Below are positions 47,669 to 62,410 of a stretch of 64,000 bases of DNA, in pieces. The position numbers and the translations under genes were made by a program. The notes below the pieces were generated by a model that was given only the letters and a program-made list of their open reading frames with translations, ran no database searches and was not told the origin of the DNA. The DNA comes from Streptomyces carminius (GTDB lineage Bacteria; Actinomycetota; Actinomycetes; Streptomycetales; Streptomycetaceae), in NCBI RefSeq assembly GCF_002794255.1, contig NZ_PGGW01000049.1:1-64000 (forward strand). Reading direction: 5' to 3'. Within the stretch, counting starts at the first letter, position 1, and each line of letters starts with the position of its first letter.

Positions 47669-50600
47669 TCAACGCGGGTTTGGTTTGCGGGCCTGCCGCT
47701 GCTCAACGCCATCGGGGCGCAGGTGTCCAGCTTGCTCAGCACCGTTGGCGGGCTTCTTCGCTCCCCGGTTAACAGTGGTAGACCGGCCTCGGGCGGCCGC
47801 CGTAGACACGCGTTTGGTGGCGCCTGGCATGGGCCGGGCCAATGCCTCCCCGAGGCGGCGCATCGATGGGATATCCACCGCGGCGGAGGCGGCATCCCGC
47901 GGCCCTGGCGGCGGCCCGCTGCGGCCCCCACCGGGGGAGGCGTAGGCGCTCGCGGCATCCGCGACGCCCCGCAGAGCGTCGGCGGCCGGTGCGTCCGAGC
48001 CGGTTCCCTCGCCCCGCCGCCGCAGGCGCCCCGCCGCCGCCTGCGCCCATCCGGCGACCTTCTCGCACGCGGTGATCGAGATCTTGCGGAAGAACTCGCC
48101 GACCCGGTGGTCCCCCATCAGCCGGTCGAAGTGCTCCCCGGCCCGCTCCTTCATCACACGGAACAGGTGGCCGAACGCGCCGCGCACCGTCTGGATCTTC
48201 TGCCATTCCGGAAAGTTCTGGAGCGCGGTGGCGTGCGTGTCGGCCTGCTGTAGGGCAGCGTTGACGTCGGCCGCCTGCTGCGGTGCGGACAGGGGCGCCG
48301 CCGCCTCCGCCGACTCGGCAGGGGTAGCAGCGTCCTGGTCCATGGCAGCGGGCGGTGCCGCCGGCGTGGCGGGGGCGACGGCCTCAGCGAAGGCCCGTTG
48401 CAGCGTCGCCAAGTCGGCGTCAAGGTTGGCGACCAGGTCCTGGGCGGTGCCGTTCCCCGGCGGCACGTGCTCCTCCCAGGCCTCCAGGACCGCATGGAAC
48501 TCGGCGCGGACGTCCAGCGGCCCGGCCGGGGGTTCCGTCACCGCGGTGTCCGCGAGCGGGGCCTCTGTGCCGGTCCACAGCGGCAGCTCGCCAGGCTGCG
48601 CGGCGACTTCCGGCTGAGCTGCCTGGAGGGCATCTTCCAATGCCCGGCGGATGCCGTCGACGGCGGCATCGAGGGCCGGACCGCCGTCCTCGGGCGGTGC
48701 GGCGCCGTCCGGGCTCTCCGGACCCGGAGCAGCCGCAGGCTCCGCCGGTGCTGCCGAAGAATCCTCCCGTGCCGTCTCGCTGGTCTGTGAGTCCGGGACT
48801 TCGGAACTCTGGAACTGCGTGGATTCCTCGGGTGCCCCGGTGCCCGCCGGGGCGGGCGCGGGCTGCACCTCGGGCCCGGGCTCGGTGGGAGCAGCCTGTT
48901 CACGGACGGCGGCCCGCTCCGCCTGGACCGCGGCGAGCGTGGCTTGCACCTGGCCCTGTAGACGCCGGGAGTCGTACAGGAGAGAGGCCAGCGGGAAGGC
49001 CAGCTGACCGCGTACGGGATGGCCCGGGTCGACCGGCAGCGCACCGCCCCAGGCGTTGACGGCCCCCTGCACGGCGTCGAGGTGCTGCGTCATCTGCTGC
49101 GAGCCGTAGCCCTCGGACACCGCGGCCGCCAGGCCGTCGAGGGCACCGCCCAGCGCCCGGAAGTGCTCGTTCTGCTCGAAGTCGGAGTAGGCCCGGGCCG
49201 CGGCGAGGGCCACCGACTCACGGTGCTGTAGGGCGACGTCGCGCAGGGTGGCCCGCAGCACGTCCACCCGCTGTCGCGTCTCGTCGCCGACGGCCGCGCC
49301 CACCGGCGGGCCATAGGGGTCGCCGGTGAACGCGGAGTGCATGACCGCCGCGTGGGCGGCCGCTTCCTGCGGCTGATCTGCCAGGTAGGTGAAATCGGCA
49401 GGTTCGGCGGCCAGCTGTGCGAACCAGCCGCCGTCGCCGCCCGGCTGGAGCATGGCGACGACGAGGTCGTCCCGCAGTACCTCGCCGGAGTCGACCGGCT
49501 GGCCGTCCAGCCCGGACAGGCGCAGCCGGTAGCTGGAGTCGCCCGCGAGCGGGGCCGTCTCGAAGTAGCGCTGCGGTGCGGGCGGTTCCTCGGTGATCGG
49601 TTCGTCCGGGGCATGGGTGGGCTCCGGAATCGGCGGGGTGGTCATGGTCGGCTCCTCCGAAGCGTCTCGCGCCGTCTCGTCACTGGGGGCGTCCTCTCCC
49701 GCCGGGGTCGTCGGCGCGGCCGTCGTGTCGGTCTCGGGTGTCTGCTGGTCGCCGTCCGTCGTCTGGGGTCGGTCCTGCTCGAGGAACGACGCTTCGCGCC
49801 GTGCCTCGTGCATCCCCTTATCCGGGGCTGCGCCTGCGGGCTCCGGCGCGTCCTGGGGGAGGGGCACACGATCCGGCGCCGGATCGCTGTCCGTGGCGGT
49901 GTCGCCCGGAGCGTCGTCGACGGCGGCCGGCGGCTCCGGTACTTTCTGGGGGTCCGGCGCTGGGGCGTTGTCCGTGGCGCTCTCCGTCTCGGTGTCCGTC
50001 GCGGGCGGCGTGCCCGCGGGCGGTTCCCCGAGGCCTTCGGTGGCCGCTGCCGGTTCGTCGGGGCCTGGCTCGGTGCGGGTCTCCGGGGCGTCGTCGGCAT
50101 CGGCGGGCGGTTGTTCGGCGGCCGCGCTCTCCGGGGTGGCGGTGTTCTGCTCCGCCGAGCTCGCGGTGAGGGCGGCCAACTCCGCCTCGAAGGCGGCGAC
50201 CGTCGCTCGCGAGCGGGAGGCCAGGAGGCGGGCGGCCTCCCGGACCTGTCCCAGTGGGCCGCGCAGGTCGTCGCTGACGACCGCCTCCAGGGCGCCACTC
50301 CAGGCCGCCACCGTGTGGACCTGGCGCACCAGGTCGTCCGGCGAGCCCACCGGGCCCTCCCGCAAGGTCCGCTCGGCGTCCTGGTAGGCCGCCGCCAGCT
50401 GGGCGATGGGGTTGGTCGGATCACCGTCGCCGTCGGGGCGCTGCTGCCGGTCCGCTTCGTGGAAGCGCTGGACGACGGGCAGGGCGGCCCACCGTGCGAA
50501 TGCCTCCCCCAACCGGTCGATGTCCGCCTGTGCCTCCGCGTCGGTGGTGTACGGCTCGGCAGGATCAAGCGACGGCACGTCCATGTCCAGGAGCACCACG

Positions 50601-53600
50601 TCCAGCTCCGGCAGTTCAGCAGCCGCTGCCGACGTCTCCGGGTGGTGGGCCTGGTGGTGCGCCTGAGCCAGTGCCTCACCGGCGGGGGCGCGGCCGGCGT
50701 ACTCGGCGACATCGGCGCGCTCGGTCCAGCTGCACACACACCACGCCTCGACCCACGTCCTGCCCGGGCCGCCGAGGGTGACGGCCGTCGCGTGCGGGGC
50801 ACCGTCAGCAACCGCCGTGGCGTGGAGGCGGAGTCGTTCGAGCATTGGCGCCCACGCGGACATGTAGCTGTCGACGGCGGTGCAGGATGCGATCAAGGTC
50901 CCCGCTTGGTCCTCGATCAGGAGCGGCGCCAGGTCACCGGAAGCGGTGCGGCCTTGCCACTCCCGGCGGACTGTGTAGAGGGCGCCGGTCTCGGCGGTGA
51001 TCGTCCACGAGCCGTCAGGGTTGTACTGGATTGCCTCCGACTCCCCGACTTCCGGCAGTATCCACAGTCCGGCGTCATAGTTCATGCGGCGGGCGACGGT
51101 GAACCCGGCGGCCAAGTCCCCGCCAGTCTCGGCCGCATGCTCAGCGACGGCCGCCAGGGCCGCGCTTCTGCCCTTGCCGGAACCGATGCTGATCACGTCC
51201 CACCGGCCCGACGGTTCTACACCGTGCCAGGTCGCCCGCCACATGATCCCCTGCGCGCCCTTGCCCTGGTTGTCGTGGGAGATCTCGTACTTGCCGACGG
51301 TCAGCCCGGGGCCGGTGACGGTGAACTCATACGGGGACGGCCCGCCGTTGCGGCCCTTCGGGCTGACGGTCAGCGTGTTGACGTCGACGACCTCGGGCGC
51401 CGCCTCCTCAGCAGGCTCCGGCGCCGCGTCGCTGCCCTCCGCCCCCCAGCCGGCGAGTTCGAGGACTGCGAGGGCCACGCGGTCGGCCTCGTTCGCCGCT
51501 TCCACGCGGGGCGTGCCACGCCGGGCGACCAGCGCGACCCGGTCCTGGCGTGCTGCGGCCACTTCCGCCGCCGCCCGCTTCTGTGCCGCCGCGTCCCCGC
51601 CCGCAGCCTTCACCTCCGCTCGCGCTTCCCGCATGGCGCGGTCGTCACCGGCTTCGCACGCCTCGGTGAGGAGCTGACTCGTCAGAGCCTGGGCGGGCCA
51701 GGGGGCGGTCTCTCCGGCATCCAGTGCGGCCGACAGCATCTGTCCAGCAAGCTCAGCGATTCGGTCGGGCCACTGCTTCCAGTGCAGGTCGACCACCTTC
51801 GGATCACCTTTGGCCAGGCTCTCAACCAGGCTCTCCACGTCGTGGTAACTGATGCGCCTGTCCTCATCGTCCAGGAGCCGACGAGACAGGCACCGCGCGC
51901 ACATGGTGTAGCAGCCAAGCTCGCTGCCCTGGTCGTCGACGACGGCGACCGTGTACCGGGCGCCCGAGCGCTTCGCACTGCACTTGCCGACGTACGGCGC
52001 CGACGCATCGCAGTACGCGTCCGGTGTGTCGGCCATGTCATCCGTGAGCTGGGCCACGACGTGTAGCCGCGCGTTCGGAATGGCGGCCCGGGCTGAGTGC
52101 CAGATCTTCCACTCGGCGACGTACTGCCGGTTATCCGGGCCCTTCCGGGACCAGTCCTCACCGGTGCGGCCCTGCGCGCCGTCCGGGTCGGTCAGGTGCT
52201 CCCAGCCCCACCGGCACGACGCGATAAGGCCGACACTGCCGAACCGGCGGACCAGGTACACGTCCTCTTCGAGCTGGACGCGGTCCGTGGTCGTCTCGAA
52301 CTGGGGGGTCTGCGCCGTCAGGTGCCCGTACCGGGCCCACAGGGAAGCGAACCGGGTACGAGTCGCCGAGTCCTCACGGATTCGCTCCAGCACGGTGGTA
52401 AGGGGCCGGTCCTCCACGTTCGCGTCCCACCAGTAGGAGCCGTCAGCGTCGTGACCGGCCTCCCACTTGTCCTCACCTGGACGGGAGTACGGCACAGGGC
52501 GTAGCCGGAATGTGTGCCCGCCCGCCGTCGTCAGGACCCAGCCCGCCGCCGGTTCGCGCCAGTCGGTGAACGACACGGGGGCGATCGTCTCGCCCTCGAC
52601 GAGCGCCGCCCGAAGCTGTGCCTCTCGCCCGTCGTCGGCCATTACCAGCTGGGCAGGCGGTTCATCATCAGGAACGGTCCCGCTGCCCGTGGTCGTCTCC
52701 GGCTCCACCGGGCCCTCTGCCGGGTCCTGTGCCGGATCGCCGAACAACCCGAGCTGTTCTGTCCCTGCGCCGGGCGCGGCCGCGCTCCCCTTTCTCCGGG
52801 CGCGAGTTCGGTCGGGGGCGGGTGTTGGCGTGGGCTGCTCGACGTCGGCTGGCGCCGCCACGAACGGGTCGGGCCGCCAGGCTCGGGGATCGTCCGGGCG
52901 GATGGCCGCCAGCAGGACGGCCAGTTCCTCAGCCGCCCGGGTCAGGTAGGGCGCGGACGTGTCGGCGAAGTCGGCAGCCCAGAGTAGATCGTCATGCACC
53001 AGCGCCAGGTCATCCGCGAGGTCCGTGCTGGTGAGCTGTCCAGCACTCAGGTTCTCCACGACCTGCCGCAGGGCCGACAGGCGTGCGGCGGCTTCCTGGT
53101 CCTCGCCCGGGTAGCTGGGGGAGAGGCGGATCGTGCCGAGCGCGGCGGTGAGCGTCCAGGCGGTGTCCGCGTCGATGGCCTCCCGGGGCACGGGCATCTG
53201 GAGGGCGCGGGCCACCAGTTCCGCCACCGCCGCCTGGCTGTCTTCGAGCAGAGCCGATACGGAGTCCCTGTGGCCGAAGGGGGGCCGACTCTCGAAGCGG
53301 GGCCCGGGCGCCTGCCGCATCTCGGCAGGCCGCGACTGGTCATGTGCCGCCCCCACTGTCTGGTTGAGGTCCGTGATGTAGCCGATCAGTCGACCGTCGA
53401 GCCAGACGGTGGAGGACGACTCGCTCGTCGGGATGATGTCCGCCCGGCCCGCGTACTGGGCCAGCTGCTCGGGGCCGCCGAACCGCTGCTCGGACTGTTG
53501 GAGGGGCTCCGGGGTGTCCGACGAGGACGTCGGCGGGGTGGCCAAGATGACGGAGGGCTCAGGAGGCGCGGGCGGGGTGCCTTCCGGGCCGGCGGGCGCG

Positions 53601-56600
53601 GCTTCGGTCTGCGCCTCTTCCACGGTCATCTGCCCGTCCGGGACGCCGTCGGTCTCCTCCCCTTCCGCGTCCGTCTCCGGCTCATCCTGCGGGGCCGGGT
53701 TCGGGACGCGTTCCGGCGGCACGAGGCCGAACTCCTCGTACAGGTTGGCCGTCCCGTGCCCGTCGCTGTCTTGCTCCGGGGTCGGCTCGGTCGGCTGCTG
53801 GCTGGTGTTCCGCTGTTCGGCCGTCGGCGGGGATGCCTCGCTGTCCGCCGGTTCCGTGTCCAGCTTGTGCAGTTCACGCAAGGCGTCATAGTGCCTGCTG
53901 GTGCCGTGCTCCGGCTCGCGCACCATGTAGTTGCCGTTCCGGGTGTAGCTGATCACGGTGCCGATGAACTCAGGCTGCGGCACGTAGGTCTTGCTCCACG
54001 TGTCGTAGTTCATGGGGGTTACGCGGACCTGCTCGCCGGGTGCGTACAGGGTGGTTACGTCTTCGACGGCGGACGATTCCACCTCTGCTGACTCCGCCTC
54101 GCGAGTGGCAGCCTCCGCTGCCTTTGCCTCGGGGTCTACCTGCCGCACCCGAGCCTGAGACAGGGCACGCCGGTAGTCGGTCAGCGTCACGTATCCGGGC
54201 AGAAGGCGGCCGCCAATCTCCGCCCCGGAGCGCTCAGTGTCGAACGTCCAGCGCTTAGCGCCTTCCGCCTGAGTCCACATCAAGGACAGAACGGCGAGCG
54301 ACTCCCCACCTTGGTAGTTGTCGTGTGTCGTGCCAGAGGCCTCGCACTCCCACACACCGAGCAATGATTCCTCGTCCCCAACGACGATGGATCCGGCGCG
54401 CAGCGCCACGGCCCATCCCGCCGCCTCCGCCTTAGACGCGAACTCGATCATGGCGGACGGAACGCCCTTACGTCCCACGTTGGACGTATCCCACTGGCCG
54501 TAGGCACCCACCCACCAGGAGCGGTCGATCGCCGTGCCCGCTGGGCGCGTGATCCGGGCGACAAAACCAGGCTCGGGCCGCTCCTCTGTCCCGGGGCCGG
54601 GCTCGTCCTGTGTTGCCGGGGCCGGGGCGCGGTCGGGCTGCGCGAGGTCGAACTCCTCGTCGCCGGACGGCTCACTGGTCCGTGAGTCCGGAACTTCGGG
54701 AGTCTGGGACTCCGTGGGTTCCTCGGTGCTGCTGCCGTCCTCTGGCTCCGGCGGGGCCTGCTCCGGCGGTGCTTGGGCCCCGTCCGCGGGACGAGTGCCG
54801 GAGCTGCCGGTGGGCCTGGCGGCCGTTTCGTCGGGCGCAGGCGCAGGCGTGAGTGCCGGATTCGGCGCCGGCGCGGGGGCGGCCGTGGGAAGCTCGGGGG
54901 CGGGGGTCGTCGCGTCGAACGCGGCGAGGGCGGCCGCCGCCTGGTCGACCTTCGCCTGATGGGGTGCGCGCTGCTCGGCACGCTCCGCGATGGCCTTCTT
55001 ACGGCTCTCGGGAGTGCGGTACCTCTCCGGGTCGAGCATGGACTCGGTCAGCTCCGGGAGCTTGTCCCGCTCGGTGATCGCGCCGACCACGGCATCCAAC
55101 AGCTCCACGCGGCGCCGGGCGTGCTCGATGGCCGGGCCGTAGTCGACCGAGGCCTGCTGCGCGGTGAGCAGCGTGATCTCGGCTTCCAGCACCGGAAGGC
55201 GCTCGCGGTCCATGAGCTGGTGGTCTTCGGCCTTCTCCAGCGCGGTCGCCAGGCGGCCGATGATGGTGGCGCCGAACTTCGGGTTGGCCAGGTCGCCGAT
55301 GGAGCAGACGGATTCGCTGTGCCGCAGGTTGGGGAAGCCGACGTGGGCGCGGATCTCGCCGCCGTCCAGGATCTCCGGCTGTACCGCGAAGTCGAGCCCG
55401 CCGAAGGTGCCGATCGTCGTCCACGGCCCCATTCCGAGGCTGCTGTGGCCGCGCAGGGCGTCGGCGACGGCCTGGCGTACGACCGGACCGGCCTTGCCGC
55501 GCTTGTCGAAGTCGCGGCCGCCGACCCGGATCTGGAAGGCGTCGCCGCGGATCGTGGCGGTGACCTTCGGCAGGGCGGCGTCCCGGAGGGCGATGGCGCG
55601 CTGGGTGCTGGCGAGTTCGTTCTCCTTGGCGAGCAGCAGCTCCGCCTGGCGGACGCGGTCGGCGGCCGCGTTGCGCCGGTCGGCCTCCAGGCCCTGGAGG
55701 TGGACCTTGGCCTCCATGAACTGCCGCATGAAGGGGTTGCCGCCGATCTCGGCGGCCATCGTGGCGTAGTCCCAGTCGCTCGCGCCGATCTCTTCGACGG
55801 TGTCGTTGTCGTCGTCGCCCTCGCCGGGCGGACGCTGGATGTCGCGCAGCCCTTCCGCCTTGGAGGTGAGCAGTCCGACCTGCCAGGCGTCCATGCTGCC
55901 CTTGGTGGCCAGGAAGTAGATGTTCACCTCCTCGTGCTGGTTGCCGGGGCGGATGACGCGGCCGTTGCGCTGGATCATGCTGGCCGGGGTCCAGTCCTGA
56001 TCCAGGTGCATCAGGGCGTAGGCCCGGTTCTGGCCGTTGAAGCCGGTGCCGAGGACTTCGGTGGAGCCCATGAGGACCGCGATGCCGCCGTTGTTGGCGG
56101 CCTCCGACATCGCGGCCTTCTTCTCCGGGGTGGCGTTGTCCTGCGCGAACTGGACCATGTCGCGGGGCACCCCGCGGGCGGCGAGCAGGTCGCGCAGCTC
56201 GGCGTAGGCGTCGAAGCCGCCCTTGTTGTTGCCGCCGGGGGTGCCGCTGTTGCAGAAGACGAAGAACAGCCCGCCGGGGATCGGGTGCGGGGTGTCGTCG
56301 CGGCTGGAGACGGCGTAGGTGCGGTCCTTGTGGGCGTGGTAGCCCGCCGCGATGATGTCGGCCGCCGTCACCAGCTTGTTCGCCGCGGGAGCGCCTGCGT
56401 CCACCAGCCGGGGGTCGAGCGCGACCGCGCGGCCCTCGCCGGAGACGGCCAGCATGTTGTCCTCATCGCGGGTGACGTCACCGGCGTGGATCGCCTGGCC
56501 GCGGGCCACCAGGGTCTGGAGCCGGGCGCGCTGGTCGGCGGTCGACTCCACCAGCACCAGTTCCGGGGCGCCGCCGGCGAGCTTGGGCCGCTCGATCCCG

Positions 56601-59600
56601 ACGTCGTCGCCGGTCTTGGTGTCGGTGGCCAGTCCCCACATCGTCTTCATCGTGGACTTCGACACGAACCGGGAGAAGCGTTCGACGATCGTCAGGCCAC
56701 TGCCGTCCGGCGCCATCTCGATGCGCTGGACCTTCTGTCCGAAGGTCTCCGACCACAGGTCCGGGCCGTGCACCCCGAACTGGTCCAACAGCCACGGCGT
56801 CGCCAGTTCGAGCACTGAGTACTGCTCGAAGATGGAGTTCTCCATCGGCGTGCCGGTGCCGAGGGTGACGGTGGGGCGGCCGCCGTGGACCTCCGCCACC
56901 TGGTGGTGCCACCTGAGCTTCTGGTGCAGGTCCACTGCGCGGACGCTCGCGGTCTCGCCGCCGGCCTCTTTGGAGCGGAAGCCCACGGCGGTGAAGCGGT
57001 GCGCTTCGTCGACGAGCGCGTAGTCGAACCCCAGGTCCTCCCAGTACACCTCGCCCGGGGTGCGCATCGGCGCGTCGTTGCGCCGGATGCGGGCTTCCAC
57101 CGTGGTCAGGCGCCGTTCCAGCTGCATCAGCGCGAAGGCGTTGTGCGGAACCCCCCGCTCGCGCTTGAGCTGTTCCTTCAGTGACTCGATCTCGCGGAAG
57201 AGGTACAGCTCTTGCTGCTCGGGGCTCATCCGGATCGACCCGAACGCGCCCTCGGTGAAGATGACCAGGTCCGGGGTGTTCGAGCGCAGCCACTCCAGGA
57301 CCCGGCGACGGTTGCCGTCGGCGAGGTCGTCGGAGGTGATCAGGTGGATGTCGGCGTTGGGGTAGAGCAGTTTGGCCTCATCCAGCCACTGCCGGGCCAG
57401 GTGCGGTTGGACCACCGCGAAGGGCTTGGCGATCTGCCCGGAGGCCTTGAGTGCCTGCGAGCCCATCACCATCGTGGTGGTCTTGCCGAGGCCGACCTCG
57501 TGCGCGAGAACCACGCCCCGCTCGAACTGCATCCGCGCGGCCGCCGAGAGCTGCCACGGGTGCGGGGTCCGCTCGGTGGTGAACCCGGCCAGGGTCGGGG
57601 CCAGACCGTCGTAGCTGCGGACGACGTGCCCGTTCATCTGCCAGTTGTAGGCGTCGGTGAGCAGCGCGACCCGGGCGGTACTGGCGGTGCAGTAGTCCTC
57701 GAACGCCGACCGCATCGCGTCGGCCTTGTAGCGCATCGCGCGGGTGGCGTCCTCGTCCACCCCGTCGCCGCCGAGGGTGTTGACCACCATCGAAGCCCGC
57801 CCGAGCAGGGCCTTGGCGATGTGCACCGCCGAGCGCCGTTCGGTGCCCTTGAGCGCGTTGATCGCATCGGGCACCTTGCCCGCGGCCAGGGACCAGCCGT
57901 ACCGCTCGTTGTGGCTGACCTGGAGGGTCGGATCGCCGAGGTACTCCCGCAAGAAGCCCTGCACGAGAGACGCGGGAATCCAGTGCGCGCCGAGCTGGGC
58001 GGTGAACTGCCCCAGGCGCTTGGGCGGCGGCTGCACCGCTTCCAGCGCGGCGACGTTCACCGCGTACGTCGGGTCGGTGGCGGCCGCCTCGCGGGCCTGT
58101 TCGAGCTTCACCCGGACCGGCCCGGACAGGTAGGCGCCGGCGTGCTCCAGCTTCTTGGTGACCGGGTTGTCGAAGACCTCGGTGCCCAGGCGGCGGCGGG
58201 CCTCTTCGGGGGTCGTGCCCAGCAGGGAGGCGATCAGCGGCAGGTCCACGCCGCCGGTGGCGCCCATCACGGCCGTCAGTGCCGTCTTCGGGTCGTCGGT
58301 GGGCTCCAGGCCGCCGCGGCGGGTGCCCGGCCGCCGGGTGAGGACCTCGGAGGGCACCGGCCGGTCGTTCGCCCGGTCCCAGTGCTCCAGACCCAGGACG
58401 ACGGCGGCGTGCGGGTCCTGGCGGAACCAGCCCCAGCCCGTAGGAAGGCGTTCGTCGTCGTCCAGCTCGACGCCGGCGGCGCGGGCGGCGGCCCTGGCCT
58501 CGTCGGTCGGCAGCGCCATCCGGGTCTGCCGGGGCCGGGACAGCGGCCCGTGCGCCATGGTGTAGGCGGCGTGTAGCCGGGCGAGCTGGCTGCGGACCTC
58601 GCGCGCACGGTCGGGGTCGCTGCCGGTGCGGTCCAGCTCTTGCAGTTCGCTCGCGGTGTCGCGCAGCGACAGCAGCATCCGCAGCTGCTCGGTGCCGGTG
58701 ACACCGTCGGCGGTGATGACCCGGACCGGGTCCTCGCCGTTGACGTGCTGCCAGATCTGCCCGTCGTCGTCCGCGTAGAGGCGGCCGGTGAAGTCCGTCG
58801 CGTGCTTCTCGCGGGCGGTCTGCAACAGCAGCGGCGCGCGGTCGGGCCCGTCCTCGTGCGGGACGTAGCCCTGGCCGTCGGCGACCGCCGCGGCGGCGGA
58901 GGCCTCCATCCGCTCGCGCAGCAGCCGGGGGGCTTCGCCCGGGTCGCCCTGCACCGTCACCCGCGGCCCGTACGGCCCCGTCTCGGACGTCAGGCGTCCC
59001 AGCACGTTCTCCGGGTGCTGGGTGAAGTAGGCGTTCACCGCCAGGGTGTTGCCGCCCAGGTCCCGCTCCGGGGCGTCGATCCATCTCTGGTCGCCCGGTT
59101 CCTCGCCCTCCGCACGGCGGCGGAAGACCAGCACGTCGGCGACCACGTCGGTGTCGGCGGTCTCGCCGAAGGTGCCCGCCGGCAGGCGGTACGCGGCCGC
59201 CAGGTCGCCCCAGCGGGACATGGCCCGGCGGGCGGAGGTGTCCTCGCCGTCCAGCGTCCACCGCGAGGTGATCACGGCCATGTAGCCGCCCGGCCGCAGC
59301 AGGGCGAGCTGCTTGATGATGAAGCCGTTGTGCAGGGAGTGCCCGGTCGCGCCGTAGCGGCGCTCCCCGAACGGGGCCTGCGCGAACGGCACGTTCCCGA
59401 TCACCAGGTCGAACGTGCCGACCGGGGCGTCGGTGTCGGTGAACGACTCGGACAGCACGTTGGCGTGCGGGTAGATCCGGGCCGCGATCGCCGCGGTGGT
59501 GGGGTCCACCTCAACGCCGGTCAGCCGCGCGGTCTGGGGGGCCACCCCGAAGAACGCGCCGGACCCGCACCCGGCCTCCAGGACCTCCCCGCCGTCGAAG

Positions 59601-62410
59601 CCGTACGCGGCCAGGCCCTGCCACATCGCCTCAGCGACGCCCTGCGGGGTGTAGTGGGCCGACAGCACGGCCCGGGACGCCGCCCGCCACTCGAAGGGGT
59701 CCAGCAGCTCCCGCAGCTCGCCGCGCACCCGGTCGTAGGACTCCCAGCGGGCATGGTCCGCCTCGAATCTGCCCTCCCACTCGCCGCCGGGCTGGTAGAT
59801 CGGCTCATCGGGGTCCGGCTCGTCGAGGAACACGGTCGGGACCGAGCCCCAGCCCGACCAGCGGGCCAGGATGCGCTTCTCCTCGGTGGTGGCGCCGCGG
59901 CGGTCGCTCTCCAGTGTCCGCAGCACCTTGATGGCTTCGAGGTTCGCCTCAGCGCGGGCCAGCGGGCCGCGCGGCAGGTCGGCCGGGTCGGGGCGGAACC
60001 GCGCTACAGGTTCTCCAGCTCCCTGCGGATCGCCGCCAGCTCCACCGCTTCCGGACTCAGCGGCGCCGCCGGGCTGTCCGGGTCCTCCGGCGGCGGCAGC
60101 ATCTCGCGCAGCACCTGCTCCCGCGCCGTCGCCCTGATCTGCTCCAGCTGCCCGACCCGGGCCTGGTAGCCCGTCTCCGGCTCCAGGGTCTCCTCCAGGT
60201 CCTCCTCCGCCGCGGCGATCGCCTCGCTCATCTGCGCTCCCAGCTTCCGAAAGTGCCGGTCCGGGTCCTGCATCGCCGCCAGCTCCCGCGGCCGGAACTC
60301 CTCCCAGTGCCTGCGCAGCAGCGTCTCGTACTGGCTCGTTGTCGCCATCGGCCTCGCCTCCCTCTTGCTCGTTGACGGTACCGGCCAGCGCCGCCATCTG
60401 CGCTGCCAGCCGGGACTGGTCCACCCCGCGCCGCTCGACGTCGCCGCCGACGGCGCGCACCTGCTCGATCACTGCGTTGATCCCGATGAGCGCGGCACCC
60501 ATCGCCGGGATGCGCCGCTTGGCCGCCTCCCTCTCCCGCTTGGGCAGGTCCTCGTTCAGCGATTGCTCGCGCAGGTCCTCCGTGGTCCGCTCCGCGATCC
60601 GCGCCAGCTCCCCGAGCAGTCCTTCCTCGAAGTGGAACGGGTAGGCCCGCATCACCTGGTTCGTGAGCGGGTTCACCACCTTCGTCTGCGTCGGCAGCTG
60701 GTAGGAGGTGAGGAGGGTGAGCACCCGGTCGTACTCGCGGGACAGTTCTGAAGGCCTGCGCCGCAGCCATGACACCAGCGGGTCGTAGGCGCTGACCGGC
60801 AGGTCCACTTTCCGCTCCGGGCCCCAGGTGCGCCGCGGCAGCGTCTCCGGGTCCTGGTCGTAGCGCCGCACCAGGGCTGCCATCGCGGCCGGCGCGGAGT
60901 CGAAGTCACCGATGCTGCTGCGCTGGTCGTAGTGGGCCAGGGCCCGGAACTTCTGCCCCTGGCGCTCCATGTAGCCGTAGGTGTGCACCGAGCCGTCGAT
61001 CAGCACCGTGCGGCGGCTGGTGATGCTTTCGCCCAGCTTCGCGCGGGCCGCCTCCGGGTGCTGCTCCATGCCCCGCTGGAACCACTCCGCCTCCACGGCC
61101 TTCAGCCGCGCCGCCCGGGCCTCCTTGACCGCATCGCTGTAGGAGTAGGCCGACTGCTCGTTTCTGGCGTTGAGACTCGATCCCAGCTCATTGTTCTCGG
61201 CGATCAGGTCTTCCAGCGTCATCTCGCCCACCGGCGTCCGCTCGCCGTAGGACCGCGCCCGGCGCGTGACCCGCTCCTCCTGGACGGCCTTGCGGTAGTC
61301 GGTGACCTGGTCGTACAGCTCGTGGCCGCTCGGCAGATATGTCCACACCGGGCCGATCTGCTCGTGGGCGCTCTCCAGTGCCTCATCGTCCAGGTCCGCC
61401 GCCGCCGGACCGGCCAGGAGGGCCTGGGCGGTGCGGGCGTACTGCTCGGTGCGCACCGCCTTGTTGCGGCGTGCCAGCGTCCGGTGCTCCTCGGACGAGG
61501 AGTGGAACGGCGTCTGGTAGAGGTTCTTCTGCCACCACTCGTACTCGGCAGCCAGTTCCTCGTTGCTCAGCTCCGTGACCGCCGTCGCCGTCGCCACCCG
61601 TTCCAGCAGCCGCTTGCCGCGCTCCTCCTGCAGCGCCCGGTACCGCCCCTCCACCGCGGCGCTGTAGTCCCGGGACCTCTCCATGGCGGCGGCGTCCTCC
61701 GCCTCCACCAGTTCCTCGTACGACAGGCCGGTGAGGTCCAGCGGCTCCGGCTCCGGCTCGGGCTCGGGCGGGGGAGCGGGCGCGGCCGCGGCCGCGGCCG
61801 GCTGGGCCTGCTGCGCCAGGGCGGCCGCGGCCGCCGTCGGCGAGGCGACCAGGTCCTCCGGGGTCTGGCCCGGTCCGAGCACCACGATGTTGCGGTCCTG
61901 CCGGGCGAACGCCTGTAGCACGGCGGCGAGGTTGCGGTCGCGGGTTTCCGGGTTCCACCTTCGGCCGGTCACCCGCGCCTGCCGCTGCCCGGACCAGTAC
62001 AGGTTCCCGGCCTTGACCGCGCGCACGTCATCGTCGTCGTACTTGTCGGTGCCGTACACCGCGGCGACACCGTCTTCCTCCCACCGCACCCAGACCTTGT
62101 CGCGGACACTCGGGTCGCTCGCCGCCCGGTGGTGACGCGCGGCCAGCATCGCGAAGGACGACAGCCGCCTGTCCCCGTACCCGTCGCTCACCAGGCGGGC
62201 GTCGCCGACCCGGCCCACCGCGACGCCGCCCCGGCGGGAGCCGGAAGCAATCTCGGTGCCGTCCGGGCCGAACACGGTGACCGAGTCTCCCTTGATGAGC
62301 GCGTGATAGCCCGTCACCCCGTCGACCGGCTCCGCCCCTTCGGGCAGAGGCAGCGGACCAGGCGAGGCGGCCGATTCCGTCTCGGACGCGGTCTCCGGTT
62401 CCGTCCCCAT
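47669..62410 (-). CDS. giant adenine methylase/SNF2-type helicase polyprotein-like ORF
   Basis: A single 4913-codon frame. Residues 1-686 form an unknown region; codons 687-802 lie over another gene (60004-60348). From about 804 (RFRPDPADLPRG) comes an N6-adenine methylase with SAM motif VLEAGCGSGAFFG (about 940) and IGNVPFA (about 1003). Then follows an SNF2-like helicase with Walker A HEVGLGKTTT (about 1637), VDEAHRF (about 1798) and QRNGRVIRPG (about 2148). The C-terminal 2500 residues alternate folded segments with long acidic Pro/Ala/Glu linkers. The methylase-helicase pairing resembles phage P1 DarB and polyvalent proteins of mobile elements, which may counter restriction on entry. ATG 62410 follows AGGGGGAA. 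Confidence 0.75.
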   Translation of the reverse strand: MGTEPETASETESAASPGPLPLPEGAEPVDGVTGYHALIKGDSVTVFGPDGTEIASGSRRGGVAVGRVGDARLVSDGYGDRRLSSFAMLAARHHRAASDPSVRDKVWVRWEEDGVAAVYGTDKYDDDDVRAVKAGNLYWSGQRQARVTGRRWNPETRDRNLAAVLQAFARQDRNIVVLGPGQTPEDLVASPTAAAAALAQQAQPAAAAAAPAPPPEPEPEPEPLDLTGLSYEELVEAEDAAAMERSRDYSAAVEGRYRALQEERGKRLLERVATATAVTELSNEELAAEYEWWQKNLYQTPFHSSSEEHRTLARRNKAVRTEQYARTAQALLAGPAAADLDDEALESAHEQIGPVWTYLPSGHELYDQVTDYRKAVQEERVTRRARSYGERTPVGEMTLEDLIAENNELGSSLNARNEQSAYSYSDAVKEARAARLKAVEAEWFQRGMEQHPEAARAKLGESITSRRTVLIDGSVHTYGYMERQGQKFRALAHYDQRSSIGDFDSAPAAMAALVRRYDQDPETLPRRTWGPERKVDLPVSAYDPLVSWLRRRPSELSREYDRVLTLLTSYQLPTQTKVVNPLTNQVMRAYPFHFEEGLLGELARIAERTTEDLREQSLNEDLPKREREAAKRRIPAMGAALIGINAVIEQVRAVGGDVERRGVDQSRLAAQMAALAGTVNEQEGGEADGDNEPVRDAAAQALGGVPAAGAGGDAGPGPALSEAGSADERGDRRGGGGPGGDPGAGDGLPGPGRAAGADQGDGAGAGAARDAAAAGGPGQPGGAAESGSGGAGGDPQGAGEPVARFRPDPADLPRGPLARAEANLEAIKVLRTLESDRRGATTEEKRILARWSGWGSVPTVFLDEPDPDEPIYQPGGEWEGRFEADHARWESYDRVRGELRELLDPFEWRAASRAVLSAHYTPQGVAEAMWQGLAAYGFDGGEVLEAGCGSGAFFGVAPQTARLTGVEVDPTTAAIAARIYPHANVLSESFTDTDAPVGTFDLVIGNVPFAQAPFGERRYGATGHSLHNGFIIKQLALLRPGGYMAVITSRWTLDGEDTSARRAMSRWGDLAAAYRLPAGTFGETADTDVVADVLVFRRRAEGEEPGDQRWIDAPERDLGGNTLAVNAYFTQHPENVLGRLTSETGPYGPRVTVQGDPGEAPRLLRERMEASAAAAVADGQGYVPHEDGPDRAPLLLQTAREKHATDFTGRLYADDDGQIWQHVNGEDPVRVITADGVTGTEQLRMLLSLRDTASELQELDRTGSDPDRAREVRSQLARLHAAYTMAHGPLSRPRQTRMALPTDEARAAARAAGVELDDDERLPTGWGWFRQDPHAAVVLGLEHWDRANDRPVPSEVLTRRPGTRRGGLEPTDDPKTALTAVMGATGGVDLPLIASLLGTTPEEARRRLGTEVFDNPVTKKLEHAGAYLSGPVRVKLEQAREAAATDPTYAVNVAALEAVQPPPKRLGQFTAQLGAHWIPASLVQGFLREYLGDPTLQVSHNERYGWSLAAGKVPDAINALKGTERRSAVHIAKALLGRASMVVNTLGGDGVDEDATRAMRYKADAMRSAFEDYCTASTARVALLTDAYNWQMNGHVVRSYDGLAPTLAGFTTERTPHPWQLSAAARMQFERGVVLAHEVGLGKTTTMVMGSQALKASGQIAKPFAVVQPHLARQWLDEAKLLYPNADIHLITSDDLADGNRRRVLEWLRSNTPDLVIFTEGAFGSIRMSPEQQELYLFREIESLKEQLKRERGVPHNAFALMQLERRLTTVEARIRRNDAPMRTPGEVYWEDLGFDYALVDEAHRFTAVGFRSKEAGGETASVRAVDLHQKLRWHHQVAEVHGGRPTVTLGTGTPMENSIFEQYSVLELATPWLLDQFGVHGPDLWSETFGQKVQRIEMAPDGSGLTIVERFSRFVSKSTMKTMWGLATDTKTGDDVGIERPKLAGGAPELVLVESTADQRARLQTLVARGQAIHAGDVTRDEDNMLAVSGEGRAVALDPRLVDAGAPAANKLVTAADIIAAGYHAHKDRTYAVSSRDDTPHPIPGGLFFVFCNSGTPGGNNKGGFDAYAELRDLLAARGVPRDMVQFAQDNATPEKKAAMSEAANNGGIAVLMGSTEVLGTGFNGQNRAYALMHLDQDWTPASMIQRNGRVIRPGNQHEEVNIYFLATKGSMDAWQVGLLTSKAEGLRDIQRPPGEGDDDNDTVEEIGASDWDYATMAAEIGGNPFMRQFMEAKVHLQGLEADRRNAAADRVRQAELLLAKENELASTQRAIALRDAALPKVTATIRGDAFQIRVGGRDFDKRGKAGPVVRQAVADALRGHSSLGMGPWTTIGTFGGLDFAVQPEILDGGEIRAHVGFPNLRHSESVCSIGDLANPKFGATIIGRLATALEKAEDHQLMDRERLPVLEAEITLLTAQQASVDYGPAIEHARRRVELLDAVVGAITERDKLPELTESMLDPERYRTPESRKKAIAERAEQRAPHQAKVDQAAAALAAFDATTPAPELPTAAPAPAPNPALTPAPAPDETAARPTGSSGTRPADGAQAPPEQAPPEPEDGSSTEEPTESQTPEVPDSRTSEPSGDEEFDLAQPDRAPAPATQDEPGPGTEERPEPGFVARITRPAGTAIDRSWWVGAYGQWDTSNVGRKGVPSAMIEFASKAEAAGWAVALRAGSIVVGDEESLLGVWECEASGTTHDNYQGGESLAVLSLMWTQAEGAKRWTFDTERSGAEIGGRLLPGYVTLTDYRRALSQARVRQVDPEAKAAEAATREAESAEVESSAVEDVTTLYAPGEQVRVTPMNYDTWSKTYVPQPEFIGTVISYTRNGNYMVREPEHGTSRHYDALRELHKLDTEPADSEASPPTAEQRNTSQQPTEPTPEQDSDGHGTANLYEEFGLVPPERVPNPAPQDEPETDAEGEETDGVPDGQMTVEEAQTEAAPAGPEGTPPAPPEPSVILATPPTSSSDTPEPLQQSEQRFGGPEQLAQYAGRADIIPTSESSSTVWLDGRLIGYITDLNQTVGAAHDQSRPAEMRQAPGPRFESRPPFGHRDSVSALLEDSQAAVAELVARALQMPVPREAIDADTAWTLTAALGTIRLSPSYPGEDQEAAARLSALRQVVENLSAGQLTSTDLADDLALVHDDLLWAADFADTSAPYLTRAAEELAVLLAAIRPDDPRAWRPDPFVAAPADVEQPTPTPAPDRTRARRKGSAAAPGAGTEQLGLFGDPAQDPAEGPVEPETTTGSGTVPDDEPPAQLVMADDGREAQLRAALVEGETIAPVSFTDWREPAAGWVLTTAGGHTFRLRPVPYSRPGEDKWEAGHDADGSYWWDANVEDRPLTTVLERIREDSATRTRFASLWARYGHLTAQTPQFETTTDRVQLEEDVYLVRRFGSVGLIASCRWGWEHLTDPDGAQGRTGEDWSRKGPDNRQYVAEWKIWHSARAAIPNARLHVVAQLTDDMADTPDAYCDASAPYVGKCSAKRSGARYTVAVVDDQGSELGCYTMCARCLSRRLLDDEDRRISYHDVESLVESLAKGDPKVVDLHWKQWPDRIAELAGQMLSAALDAGETAPWPAQALTSQLLTEACEAGDDRAMREARAEVKAAGGDAAAQKRAAAEVAAARQDRVALVARRGTPRVEAANEADRVALAVLELAGWGAEGSDAAPEPAEEAAPEVVDVNTLTVSPKGRNGGPSPYEFTVTGPGLTVGKYEISHDNQGKGAQGIMWRATWHGVEPSGRWDVISIGSGKGRSAALAAVAEHAAETGGDLAAGFTVARRMNYDAGLWILPEVGESEAIQYNPDGSWTITAETGALYTVRREWQGRTASGDLAPLLIEDQAGTLIASCTAVDSYMSAWAPMLERLRLHATAVADGAPHATAVTLGGPGRTWVEAWCVCSWTERADVAEYAGRAPAGEALAQAHHQAHHPETSAAAAELPELDVVLLDMDVPSLDPAEPYTTDAEAQADIDRLGEAFARWAALPVVQRFHEADRQQRPDGDGDPTNPIAQLAAAYQDAERTLREGPVGSPDDLVRQVHTVAAWSGALEAVVSDDLRGPLGQVREAARLLASRSRATVAAFEAELAALTASSAEQNTATPESAAAEQPPADADDAPETRTEPGPDEPAAATEGLGEPPAGTPPATDTETESATDNAPAPDPQKVPEPPAAVDDAPGDTATDSDPAPDRVPLPQDAPEPAGAAPDKGMHEARREASFLEQDRPQTTDGDQQTPETDTTAAPTTPAGEDAPSDETARDASEEPTMTTPPIPEPTHAPDEPITEEPPAPQRYFETAPLAGDSSYRLRLSGLDGQPVDSGEVLRDDLVVAMLQPGGDGGWFAQLAAEPADFTYLADQPQEAAAHAAVMHSAFTGDPYGPPVGAAVGDETRQRVDVLRATLRDVALQHRESVALAAARAYSDFEQNEHFRALGGALDGLAAAVSEGYGSQQMTQHLDAVQGAVNAWGGALPVDPGHPVRGQLAFPLASLLYDSRRLQGQVQATLAAVQAERAAVREQAAPTEPGPEVQPAPAPAGTGAPEESTQFQSSEVPDSQTSETAREDSSAAPAEPAAAPGPESPDGAAPPEDGGPALDAAVDGIRRALEDALQAAQPEVAAQPGELPLWTGTEAPLADTAVTEPPAGPLDVRAEFHAVLEAWEEHVPPGNGTAQDLVANLDADLATLQRAFAEAVAPATPAAPPAAMDQDAATPAESAEAAAPLSAPQQAADVNAALQQADTHATALQNFPEWQKIQTVRGAFGHLFRVMKERAGEHFDRLMGDHRVGEFFRKISITACEKVAGWAQAAAGRLRRRGEGTGSDAPAADALRGVADAASAYASPGGGRSGPPPGPRDAASAAVDIPSMRRLGEALARPMPGATKRVSTAAARGRSTTVNRGAKKPANGAEQAGHLRPDGVEQRQARKPNPR
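48780..48831 (-). repeat. 52-nt imperfect repeat in a linker of the giant ORF, copy 1
   Basis: Encodes a linker with SSEVPDSQTSE; about 5.9 kb away the copy at 54675-54726 encodes TPEVPDSRTSE. Nucleotide identity is high over the 52 nt. Confidence 0.65.
54675..54726 (-). repeat. 52-nt imperfect repeat in a linker of the giant ORF, copy 2
   Basis: Partner of 48780-48831. Both copies flank the central folded domains of the giant protein, suggesting linker duplication or past recombination. Confidence 0.65.
60004..60348 (-). CDS. 114-residue conserved-looking protein nested in the giant ORF
   Basis: Starts at ATG 60348 behind GGGAGG and stops at TAG 60004, in a different frame from the giant ORF. 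It has realistic composition (QYETLLRRHWEEFRPRELAA, then IRATAREQVLREMLPPPEDP) and almost all codons end in G or C. In the same stretch the giant frame becomes Gly/Ala-rich low-complexity with poor third-position G/C, as expected of a shadow. Similar small proteins precede methylase-helicase genes in actinobacterial elements, as far as I recall. Confidence 0.75.
   Translation of the reverse strand: MATTSQYETLLRRHWEEFRPRELAAMQDPDRHFRKLGAQMSEAIAAAEEDLEETLEPETGYQARVGQLEQIRATAREQVLREMLPPPEDPDSPAAPLSPEAVELAAIRRELENL

Follow-up and report, generated by a model that had tools for sequence, protein, structure and literature searches.

A Giant Reading Frame and the Small Gene Nested within It

The DNA analysed here, hereafter the window, is a stretch of 64,000 nucleotides (nt) from Streptomyces carminius (RefSeq assembly GCF_002794255.1, contig NZ_PGGW01000049.1, positions 1 to 64,000). 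Its minus strand carries an open reading frame (ORF) of 4913 codons, predicted to encode a DarB-like polyvalent protein of a mobile element, and inside this giant lies a complete small ORF in the +1 frame, with a start codon, a Shine-Dalgarno (SD) site and a stop codon of its own. Comparison with plasmids, genomes and phages makes it very probable that each frame is a gene and that translation of the giant runs straight through the overlap; both products are presumably made in the cell. The features of the locus are as follows.

47669..62410, minus strand: giant ORF of 4913 codons, predicted polyvalent protein of the DarB-like type (LPD36, methylase, SNF2 helicase), extended at the N-terminus by about 690 residues
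60350..62410, minus strand: N-terminal part of the giant, approximately codons 1-687, in the same frame as the helicase and 72-87% identical in the six closest plasmid relatives (L004-L009)
60357..60364, minus strand: SD site of the nested gene, GAGGGAGG, 8 nt before the ATG
60004..60348, minus strand: nested gene in the +1 frame, ATG start and TAG stop, encoding 114 amino acids, predicted all-helical and distantly TnpV-like
60005..60349, minus strand: overlap as read in the giant frame, a putative linker of 115 codons, rich in Gly (38) and Ala (27) and without stop or start codon
55943..60003, minus strand: LPD36-like motif GWGS, followed by a putative adenine methylase region (NVPF) and by SNF2-type helicase domains, from Pfam matches and motif reading

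A preliminary description of this DNA had proposed that the coding frame switches at 60004-60348 to a nested gene that has a start and an SD site of its own and the better codon bias, and that the giant frame is there Gly/Ala-rich, devoid of ATG and GTG, and not closed by a stop before the nested ATG. All of these observations are borne out in the window. The content of guanine plus cytosine (GC) by codon position changes phase twice, leaving the giant frame for the nested one at about 60360 and returning at about 60000. GC at third codon positions (GC3) is 0.956 in the nested frame; the giant frame reaches 0.452 there and 0.896 over the remainder of the giant. The flip is by far the strongest within the giant ORF, the remaining stretches being near ties. 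The nested start has an anti-SD energy of -12.7 kcal/mol, compared with a median of -2.95 kcal/mol for 2116 ATG or GTG codons in helicase parts. Codons 687-802 of the giant include no ATG, GTG or TTG, and the next such codon in the helicase frame is codon 829. Thirteen other same-strand, off-frame ORFs of at least 100 amino acids occur inside the giant, and ORF length by itself is therefore no evidence; the argument for a nested gene rests on codon phase and conservation. Elsewhere in the giant (48538-49090, minus strand) the GC3 of the +1 frame lies slightly above that of the giant frame, with a 168-codon +1 ORF from 49044; this flip is weaker than the one at 60 kb and perhaps due to chance.

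Searches of Pfam, PHROGs and NCBIfam with the small protein of the window gave nothing significant. Its match to TnpV (PF14198), at 14.7 bits and an expect value (E) of 0.03, does not reach the gathering cut-off of 27 bits. AlphaFold models of the window protein and of a phage counterpart (predicted local distance difference test scores of 85.7 and 76.7) each contain five helices.

The giant itself is taken here, from motifs and profile matches, as a polyvalent protein of the DarB-like kind. Its region 56501-60010 matches phrog_10089, annotated as DarB-like antirestriction, with an E of 2e-201. The LPD36 domain is defined by a GXGU motif N-terminal to the methylase (section 14 of PMC5512222), and in the window GWGS is found, within ARWSGWGSVP, upstream of the methylase match. 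In the methylase region Methyltransf_11 scores barely above its cut-off, with Methyltransf_25 and Methyltransf_23 below theirs, and NVPF is read where the adenine-methylase motif NPP(Y/F) is expected. C-terminal to the methylase, ResIII lies above its cut-off, SNF2-rel_dom and Helicase_C slightly below. A Pfam search with the N-terminal 690 or so residues returned nothing above cut-off. Giants in the annotated plasmid and phage records that were fetched span about 3,400-6,000 codons. Proteins of the DarB-like family are thought to carry DNA past restriction, a role that the giant of the window may share. One of them, gp69 of phage JC1, was detected in virions by proteomics (PMC9144972). Also on the minus strand, 44527-47337 holds an ORF whose domains are a helix-turn-helix of the PucR type and an S-adenosyl methyltransferase (Methyltransf_19).

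Plasmid Relatives of the Locus

A DNA search matched 14 plasmid records; in seven the match covers 80% of the query or more, and 13 of the 14 were fetched (the record left out, H6, is by its figures a near copy of H5). In the six closest, all Streptomyces plasmids (L004-L009), the giant frame, here called frame 0, runs without a stop from the annotated start through all of the sequence fetched, more than 1,880 codons, and a single protein is annotated; the nested ORF stands at +1 and its product is 75-97% identical to that of the window. In L009 the nested gene is shorter, at 90 codons. The giant coding sequence (CDS) is about 10.3 kb in L007 and L009 and about 14.3-15.6 kb in L004-L006 and L008. 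Five further loci (L002, L010, L012, L013, and L016) have the same +1 arrangement at 36-47% identity, and the nested gene is also present in L014 and L044. The phage portal gene found upstream of the giant in L014 points to a phage-plasmid; in the helicase part L044 shows 80% identity (L030). Where the giant is intact, the plasmid records annotate it alone over the nested gene, the plasmid gene table used being incomplete by its own description. In L011, from S. hirsutus, the small gene is annotated as a CDS of its own, beside a broken helicase. The searches made found no nested copy in the Mycobacterium plasmid L015, where a separate gene directly upstream of the helicase (1799-2461) matches the small-protein profile weakly (E 0.0018) and is perhaps a stand-alone copy. 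Searching plasmids with the small proteins of L075 and of phage LASTA, introduced below, yielded nothing useful.

These records bear directly on the idea that the upstream, middle and helicase genes are really separate and appear as one through an error of sequencing or assembly, or because a stop was lost recently. The preliminary description had noted that a TGATG overlap before the nested ATG would need one extra base, and had taken the missing T as a hint of a one-base deletion or sequencing error; a genome with separate small and helicase genes meeting in TGATG does exist (L041). The six closest relatives, however, share the frame relation of the window, and in L004-L009, as in many distant loci, the two flanks belong to a single open frame to which the small gene stands at +1. 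Error and recent frameshift are ruled out by independent records that share the same frames, among plasmids, genomes and phages alike, and the helicase frame, lacking any ATG, GTG or TTG until codon 829, offers no start for a separate gene there. A joining of separate genes, refuted by these homologues, can practically be dismissed.

Distribution in Actinobacteria and Three Architectures

A profile of the small protein found it in 20 of 392 genomes of the same genus and in 13 of 394 genomes of the class. Among 24 loci (23 matches and L003), frame 0 is open through the small gene into the helicase in 18; the other six (L027, L028, L032, L033, L037, and L039) are stand-alone copies or remnants. 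A scan of the genome_contigs set confirmed 15 loci, including Actinacidiphila, Kitasatospora, and Dactylosporangium, several of them contigs already in earlier sets, and in all 15 the gene is nested without a frame-0 stop. Eleven additional class-wide loci (L078-L088) are likewise all nested, L083 having a frame break farther on in the helicase.

Three architectures can be told apart. In the first (A), the small gene stands alone, and frame-0 stops occur in five of the six copies tested (7 in L041, 2 in L042, 3 in L037, 4 in L033, 1 in L046, and 0 in L039). In the second (B), the helicase ORF starts a short way upstream and continues across the small gene. Here the helicase starts, read from sequence alone, are candidates: an ATG 58, 76, and 52 nt before the small gene in L040, L047, and L049, a TTG at 52 nt in L048 and L050, and an ATG at 76-82 nt in L079-L085 and L088. 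In L043 and L045 the frame also reads over the small gene, the upstream possible start being TTG only. In the third (C), found in the window, the small gene follows a long N-terminal part, open over about 590 to 1,300 codons. That this part was once a separate gene, fused later when its stop was lost, was considered and rejected: a profile of the N-terminal 690 residues matched nothing at E 0.01 among the ORFs of L040-L050 (11 loci), several of which have instead a helicase ORF whose candidate start lies shortly before the small gene. The N-terminal part is therefore regarded as an addition.

Three genomes carry tandem small-gene pairs before the helicase, the first copy stand-alone and the second nested (L029/L039, L031/L037, and L033/L036, in G119, G165, and G413). 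In L079-L085 and L088, a conserved peptide around IDGQLSLESLWA is found near the start of the helicase ORF that reads over the nested gene; it includes QLSL, which we take to resemble a sliding-clamp-binding motif.

Phages and Viral Contigs

In a locus from another class of the phylum (L075, 47% GC) the small protein is again nested, with no frame-0 stop in 107 codons and 11 stops in the other off-frame, and its product scores 27.4 bits against the TnpV cut-off of 27. A tblastn search with this protein matched 20 phage records. The feature annotated beneath the matches is a DarB-like, methylase, helicase, PLxRFG or transglycosylase gene, with three exceptions: AF448724 ("unknown") and two Itty13 records ("hypothetical", annotated on the opposite strand). 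In one Itty13 record (L096, NC_070969) the annotated genes run opposite in strand to the open DarB-like frame and the nested gene.

Ten distinct phages, all proteobacterial, were fetched: Klebsiella phages LASTA and SopranoGao, Erwinia phages Pavtok, PEp14, and Stean, Agrobacterium phage Atu_ph08, Ochrobactrum phage POI1126, Pseudomonas phage Itty13, Vibrio phage VvAW1, and Sinorhizobium phage PBC5. All ten have the nested ORF at +1 to an open frame, with no stop in frame 0 and 6-9 in the other off-frame, and the Microcystis phage Mwe-JY07 (L168) has the same arrangement. For eight of the ten, as well as Mwe-JY07, the records annotate the giant alone over the nested gene. A match of the phage proteins to phrog_938 ("endolysin") was set aside; it aligns at 2084-2173 of the 2185-position profile and was read as the end of PBC5 gp22, where the frames merge.

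A scan of the viral_contigs set with the phage alignment gave 67 loci, and over the small gene frame 0 has no stop in any of them, compared with 379 stops in the other off-frame. The set includes two loci cut at contig ends (L117 and L132), a remnant whose frame 0 extends over just 245 codons (L112), and several near copies; L100, L101, L114, L122, and L123 match the lengths of fetched phages. The arrangement is shared by viral loci with a GC content as low as 47%. Counted by their last 200 nt, 100 distinct nested genes are present in the actinobacterial-type, genome_contigs and viral sets, leaving out L112, L117, and L132. Searches of the named phages with the window protein, and viral scans with the proteins of L075 and of the gut record L171 (see below), gave nothing useful.

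Selection on the Two Frames

Over the small gene, frame 0 is free of stops throughout the nested loci; in the other off-frame each locus has 1-16. It could be argued that only the small gene and the helicase are real, with frame 0 open by chance in GC-rich DNA and the helicase started by coupling at the end of the small gene. One open locus is indeed not rare: with helicase codon usage, the probability is 0.37-0.63 for each of 16 actinobacterial representatives. Start/stop junctions also occur at the nested stop in some loci (GTGA in L050, TAGTG in L040/L003, and TGATG in L041/L027). The joint probability over the 16 representatives, however, is 10^-5.3 to 10^-5.6, and for 32 phage representatives, in which 3.2 stops are expected per locus, log10 P is -49.6.

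Stop avoidance is also evident codon by codon. The share of T-ending codons in the nested gene was compared between sites at which the following codon would then complete a frame-0 stop (risk sites) and other sites; the p values given here are too small, as the loci are related. In 34 actinobacterial-type rows (L019 and L052 being the same locus) T-ending codons occupy 0 of 762 risk sites, compared with 112 of 1718 other sites. The values are 0/342 versus 53/810 (6.5%; p 9e-9) in the 16 dereplicated actinobacterial representatives, and 0/687 versus 158/1442 (11%; p 1e-28) in the 32 dereplicated phage representatives, which were drawn from 64 usable loci after L112, L117, and L132 had been dropped. 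Stand-alone copies show no avoidance (17/141 versus 57/484; p 0.88), nor do helicase parts used as a control (281/7157 versus 1054/24411; p 0.15). In phage helicase parts (1137/6825 versus 3655/18668; p 1e-7) there is a mild context effect, far from zero. An absence of T-ending codons from the risk sites of 32 dereplicated loci is hard to explain except by selection. Together with the unavoided stops of the stand-alone controls, with the lack of a start codon near the nested stop in the window, L048, and L049 (in the latter two the triplet at the place of a post-gene start is GTA), and with the same pattern in viral loci down to 47% GC, this leaves a chance opening of frame 0 very improbable.

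Signs of constraint are found in the nested frame as well. Its protein is conserved across loci, and its start, conserved like the SD site, is ATG or GTG near the expected place, with TTG in L134. The SD site has a median energy of -9.1 kcal/mol in 33 actinobacterial-type rows (L011 left out), a strength reached by 2.6% of the 2116 control starts, and of -6.6 kcal/mol in 64 viral loci, reached by 6% of control ATGs. Fourfold sites differ by a mean of 0.156 in the overlap, as against 0.252 in the helicase, over 30 non-independent pairs. Protein conservation, stop avoidance and slowed fourfold sites show both frames to be under purifying selection, and they support the option of a true overprinted region raised in the preliminary description. 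That description had also named, as evidence against its own reading, an uninterrupted giant frame in homologues with residues conserved over codons 687-802: homologues do have the uninterrupted frame, but the overlap residues are barely more alike than the nested protein forces. For this reason frame 0 is regarded as a linker, and it is in that capacity that selection keeps the giant frame open. Conservation of frame-0 residues as proof of a functional linker sequence is weak and was not relied on.

Programmed frameshifting offers a different account of the same frames, in which a +1 shift into the middle ORF, perhaps followed by a -1 shift out, would make the 114-residue stretch a domain of the giant. 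It fits an upstream frame without a stop ahead of the nested gene and the PBC5 record, where the upstream part continues in the nested frame; frameshifting can be promoted by SD-like sites. A shift would not, however, need an open frame 0, which selection nonetheless maintains, and the nested ORF has a start codon, usually a clear SD site, and its own stop, and exists in stand-alone copies. Frameshifting is on this evidence very unlikely.

TnpV and Loci without the Nested Gene

Two "UNVERIFIED", unannotated human-gut phage records (L170 and L171) link the nested gene to TnpV. Their nested ORFs are clear TnpV genes (133.8 and 110.2 bits; cut-off 27), placed at +1 to the methylase frame and preceded by AAAGGAG sites, and frame 0 is open over 126 and 114 codons, with 16 and 11 stops in the other off-frame. 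A core of HW..P ties the proteins of L170, L171, and L075 by profile to the window protein. Among the matches listed, 14 gut records have both methylase and TnpV (the overlap of 60 of 102 methylase records with 43 TnpV records, the open frame having been checked in two of the 14), and TnpV is at +1 in 13 of them. In gut records it lies 0.7-3.5 kb upstream of the methylase, not directly adjoining it. TnpV is otherwise known from Tn4451-type mobilisable elements; tnpV is listed as an ordinary gene in Tn6105 and Tn6106, and for TnpV of Tn4451 a role in excision has been postulated (PMC3158075). The nested proteins of L075, L170, and L171 pass the Pfam cut-off for this family, unlike that of the window. 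Eleven Streptococcus phage records carry TnpV, mostly beneath a small annotated gene of its own. A TnpV search in 11 near relatives and 14 control genomes gave nothing useful.

Several observations weigh against the reading as two overprinted genes. In PBC5 (L090) the record divides the DarB-like gene into two annotated pieces and the upstream frame continues as the nested one, a frame change that is either an indel in the sequence or real. In the gut record MT836741, TnpV shares the frame of the methylase (+0). A possible helicase start also lies at the end of the small gene in L050 and in L040 (the same locus as L003), so that reading over it is not forced there. Three of the 30 fourfold-site pairs differ more, not less, in the overlap. 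Frame-0 residues are conserved slightly above expectation (z 2.7-2.8, with pooled nested-gene codon usage), a small excess that relatedness could explain. Foldseek comparison with the PDB and viral models gave no match at E <= 0.001 that would indicate a function. No match to the small gene was found in P1 DarB and no nested copy in Pseudomonas phage 8P (L169) or in the Streptococcus element L172, which has a weak TnpV-like piece after the SNF2 gene. Among 102 phage records with the methylase part, at least 35 match the small protein (21 of the LASTA type and at least 14 TnpV); many of the remaining records are short contigs, and distant relatives escape BLAST. The nested small gene is not universal among DarB-like genes.

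Proposed Expression and Origin of the Nested Pair

In the mechanism proposed for the window, ribosomes from the giant's own start would read frame 0 across the overlap and produce a flexible Gly/Ala-rich linker, joining the N-terminal part to the LPD36-methylase-helicase. Other ribosomes would initiate internally, at the SD site and the ATG at 60348, and make a separate 114-residue helical protein, terminating at the TAG just ahead of the first conserved residues of the helicase part. Since both would be translated from the same mRNA, the small protein would be made together with the giant in time and place. It might be an accessory or partner of the giant, or act in transfer or integration of the element; this is a guess, and a doubtful one. 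The main alternative, by analogy with the role postulated for TnpV of Tn4451, would be a function at the level of the element such as excision.

The giant resembles the DarB-like LPD36-methylase-SNF2 proteins (Iyer et al., 2017; PMC5512222) in being a giant plasmid or phage ORF with GWGS, a putative adenine methylase and an SNF2 helicase. DarB of P1 differs, starting directly at the LPD36 part and having no such small gene. The section of that paper on the dyad mentions no nested gene, and the word "overlap" is absent from its main text. No published description of such a nested pair was found in the open-access literature.

Other overlapping genes offer partial parallels. Rz1 and Rz are read in different frames. 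A complete small gene embedded in another gene is likewise the arrangement of Rz1 inside Rz (PMC9144972); the families are other ones, and here the host gene encodes a multi-enzyme protein and the overlap its putative linker. Bacterial same-strand overlaps show a phase-1 bias (Sabath et al., 2008; PMC2542354), and the overlap described here, at +1, is in this composition-favoured phase. Composition accounts for the phase, but not for stop avoidance or deep conservation.

Because stand-alone copies exist and the codon bias follows the small gene, this gene probably came first and the linker frame later. A tentative extension is that the DarB-like giants of phages and plasmids lengthened across an older TnpV-like gene that had stood by itself upstream of the helicase. 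Taken up whole and out of frame, its sequence would have become a linker, and the gene would have persisted as a separate partner of the antirestriction protein in elements of Actinobacteria and Proteobacteria, in a cyanophage and in human-gut elements. The standing of this proposal is lowered by the DarB-like records and TnpV genes that lack the nested arrangement; it is possible and on balance somewhat doubtful.

Among the loci compared, the nested arrangement extends to phages and plasmids of several bacterial phyla, and the annotations examined mostly omit the small gene. It would represent a deeply conserved natural case in which one stretch of DNA encodes a folded protein and a linker together. 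The small protein may also serve as a candidate partner, open to experiment, for injected proteins of a class that is still little understood, and the orphan family TnpV gains a concrete genomic setting. If DarB-like giants did grow over a TnpV-like gene, the stand-alone TnpV genes in Pfam would be the free-living branch of a gene that is elsewhere hidden inside another.

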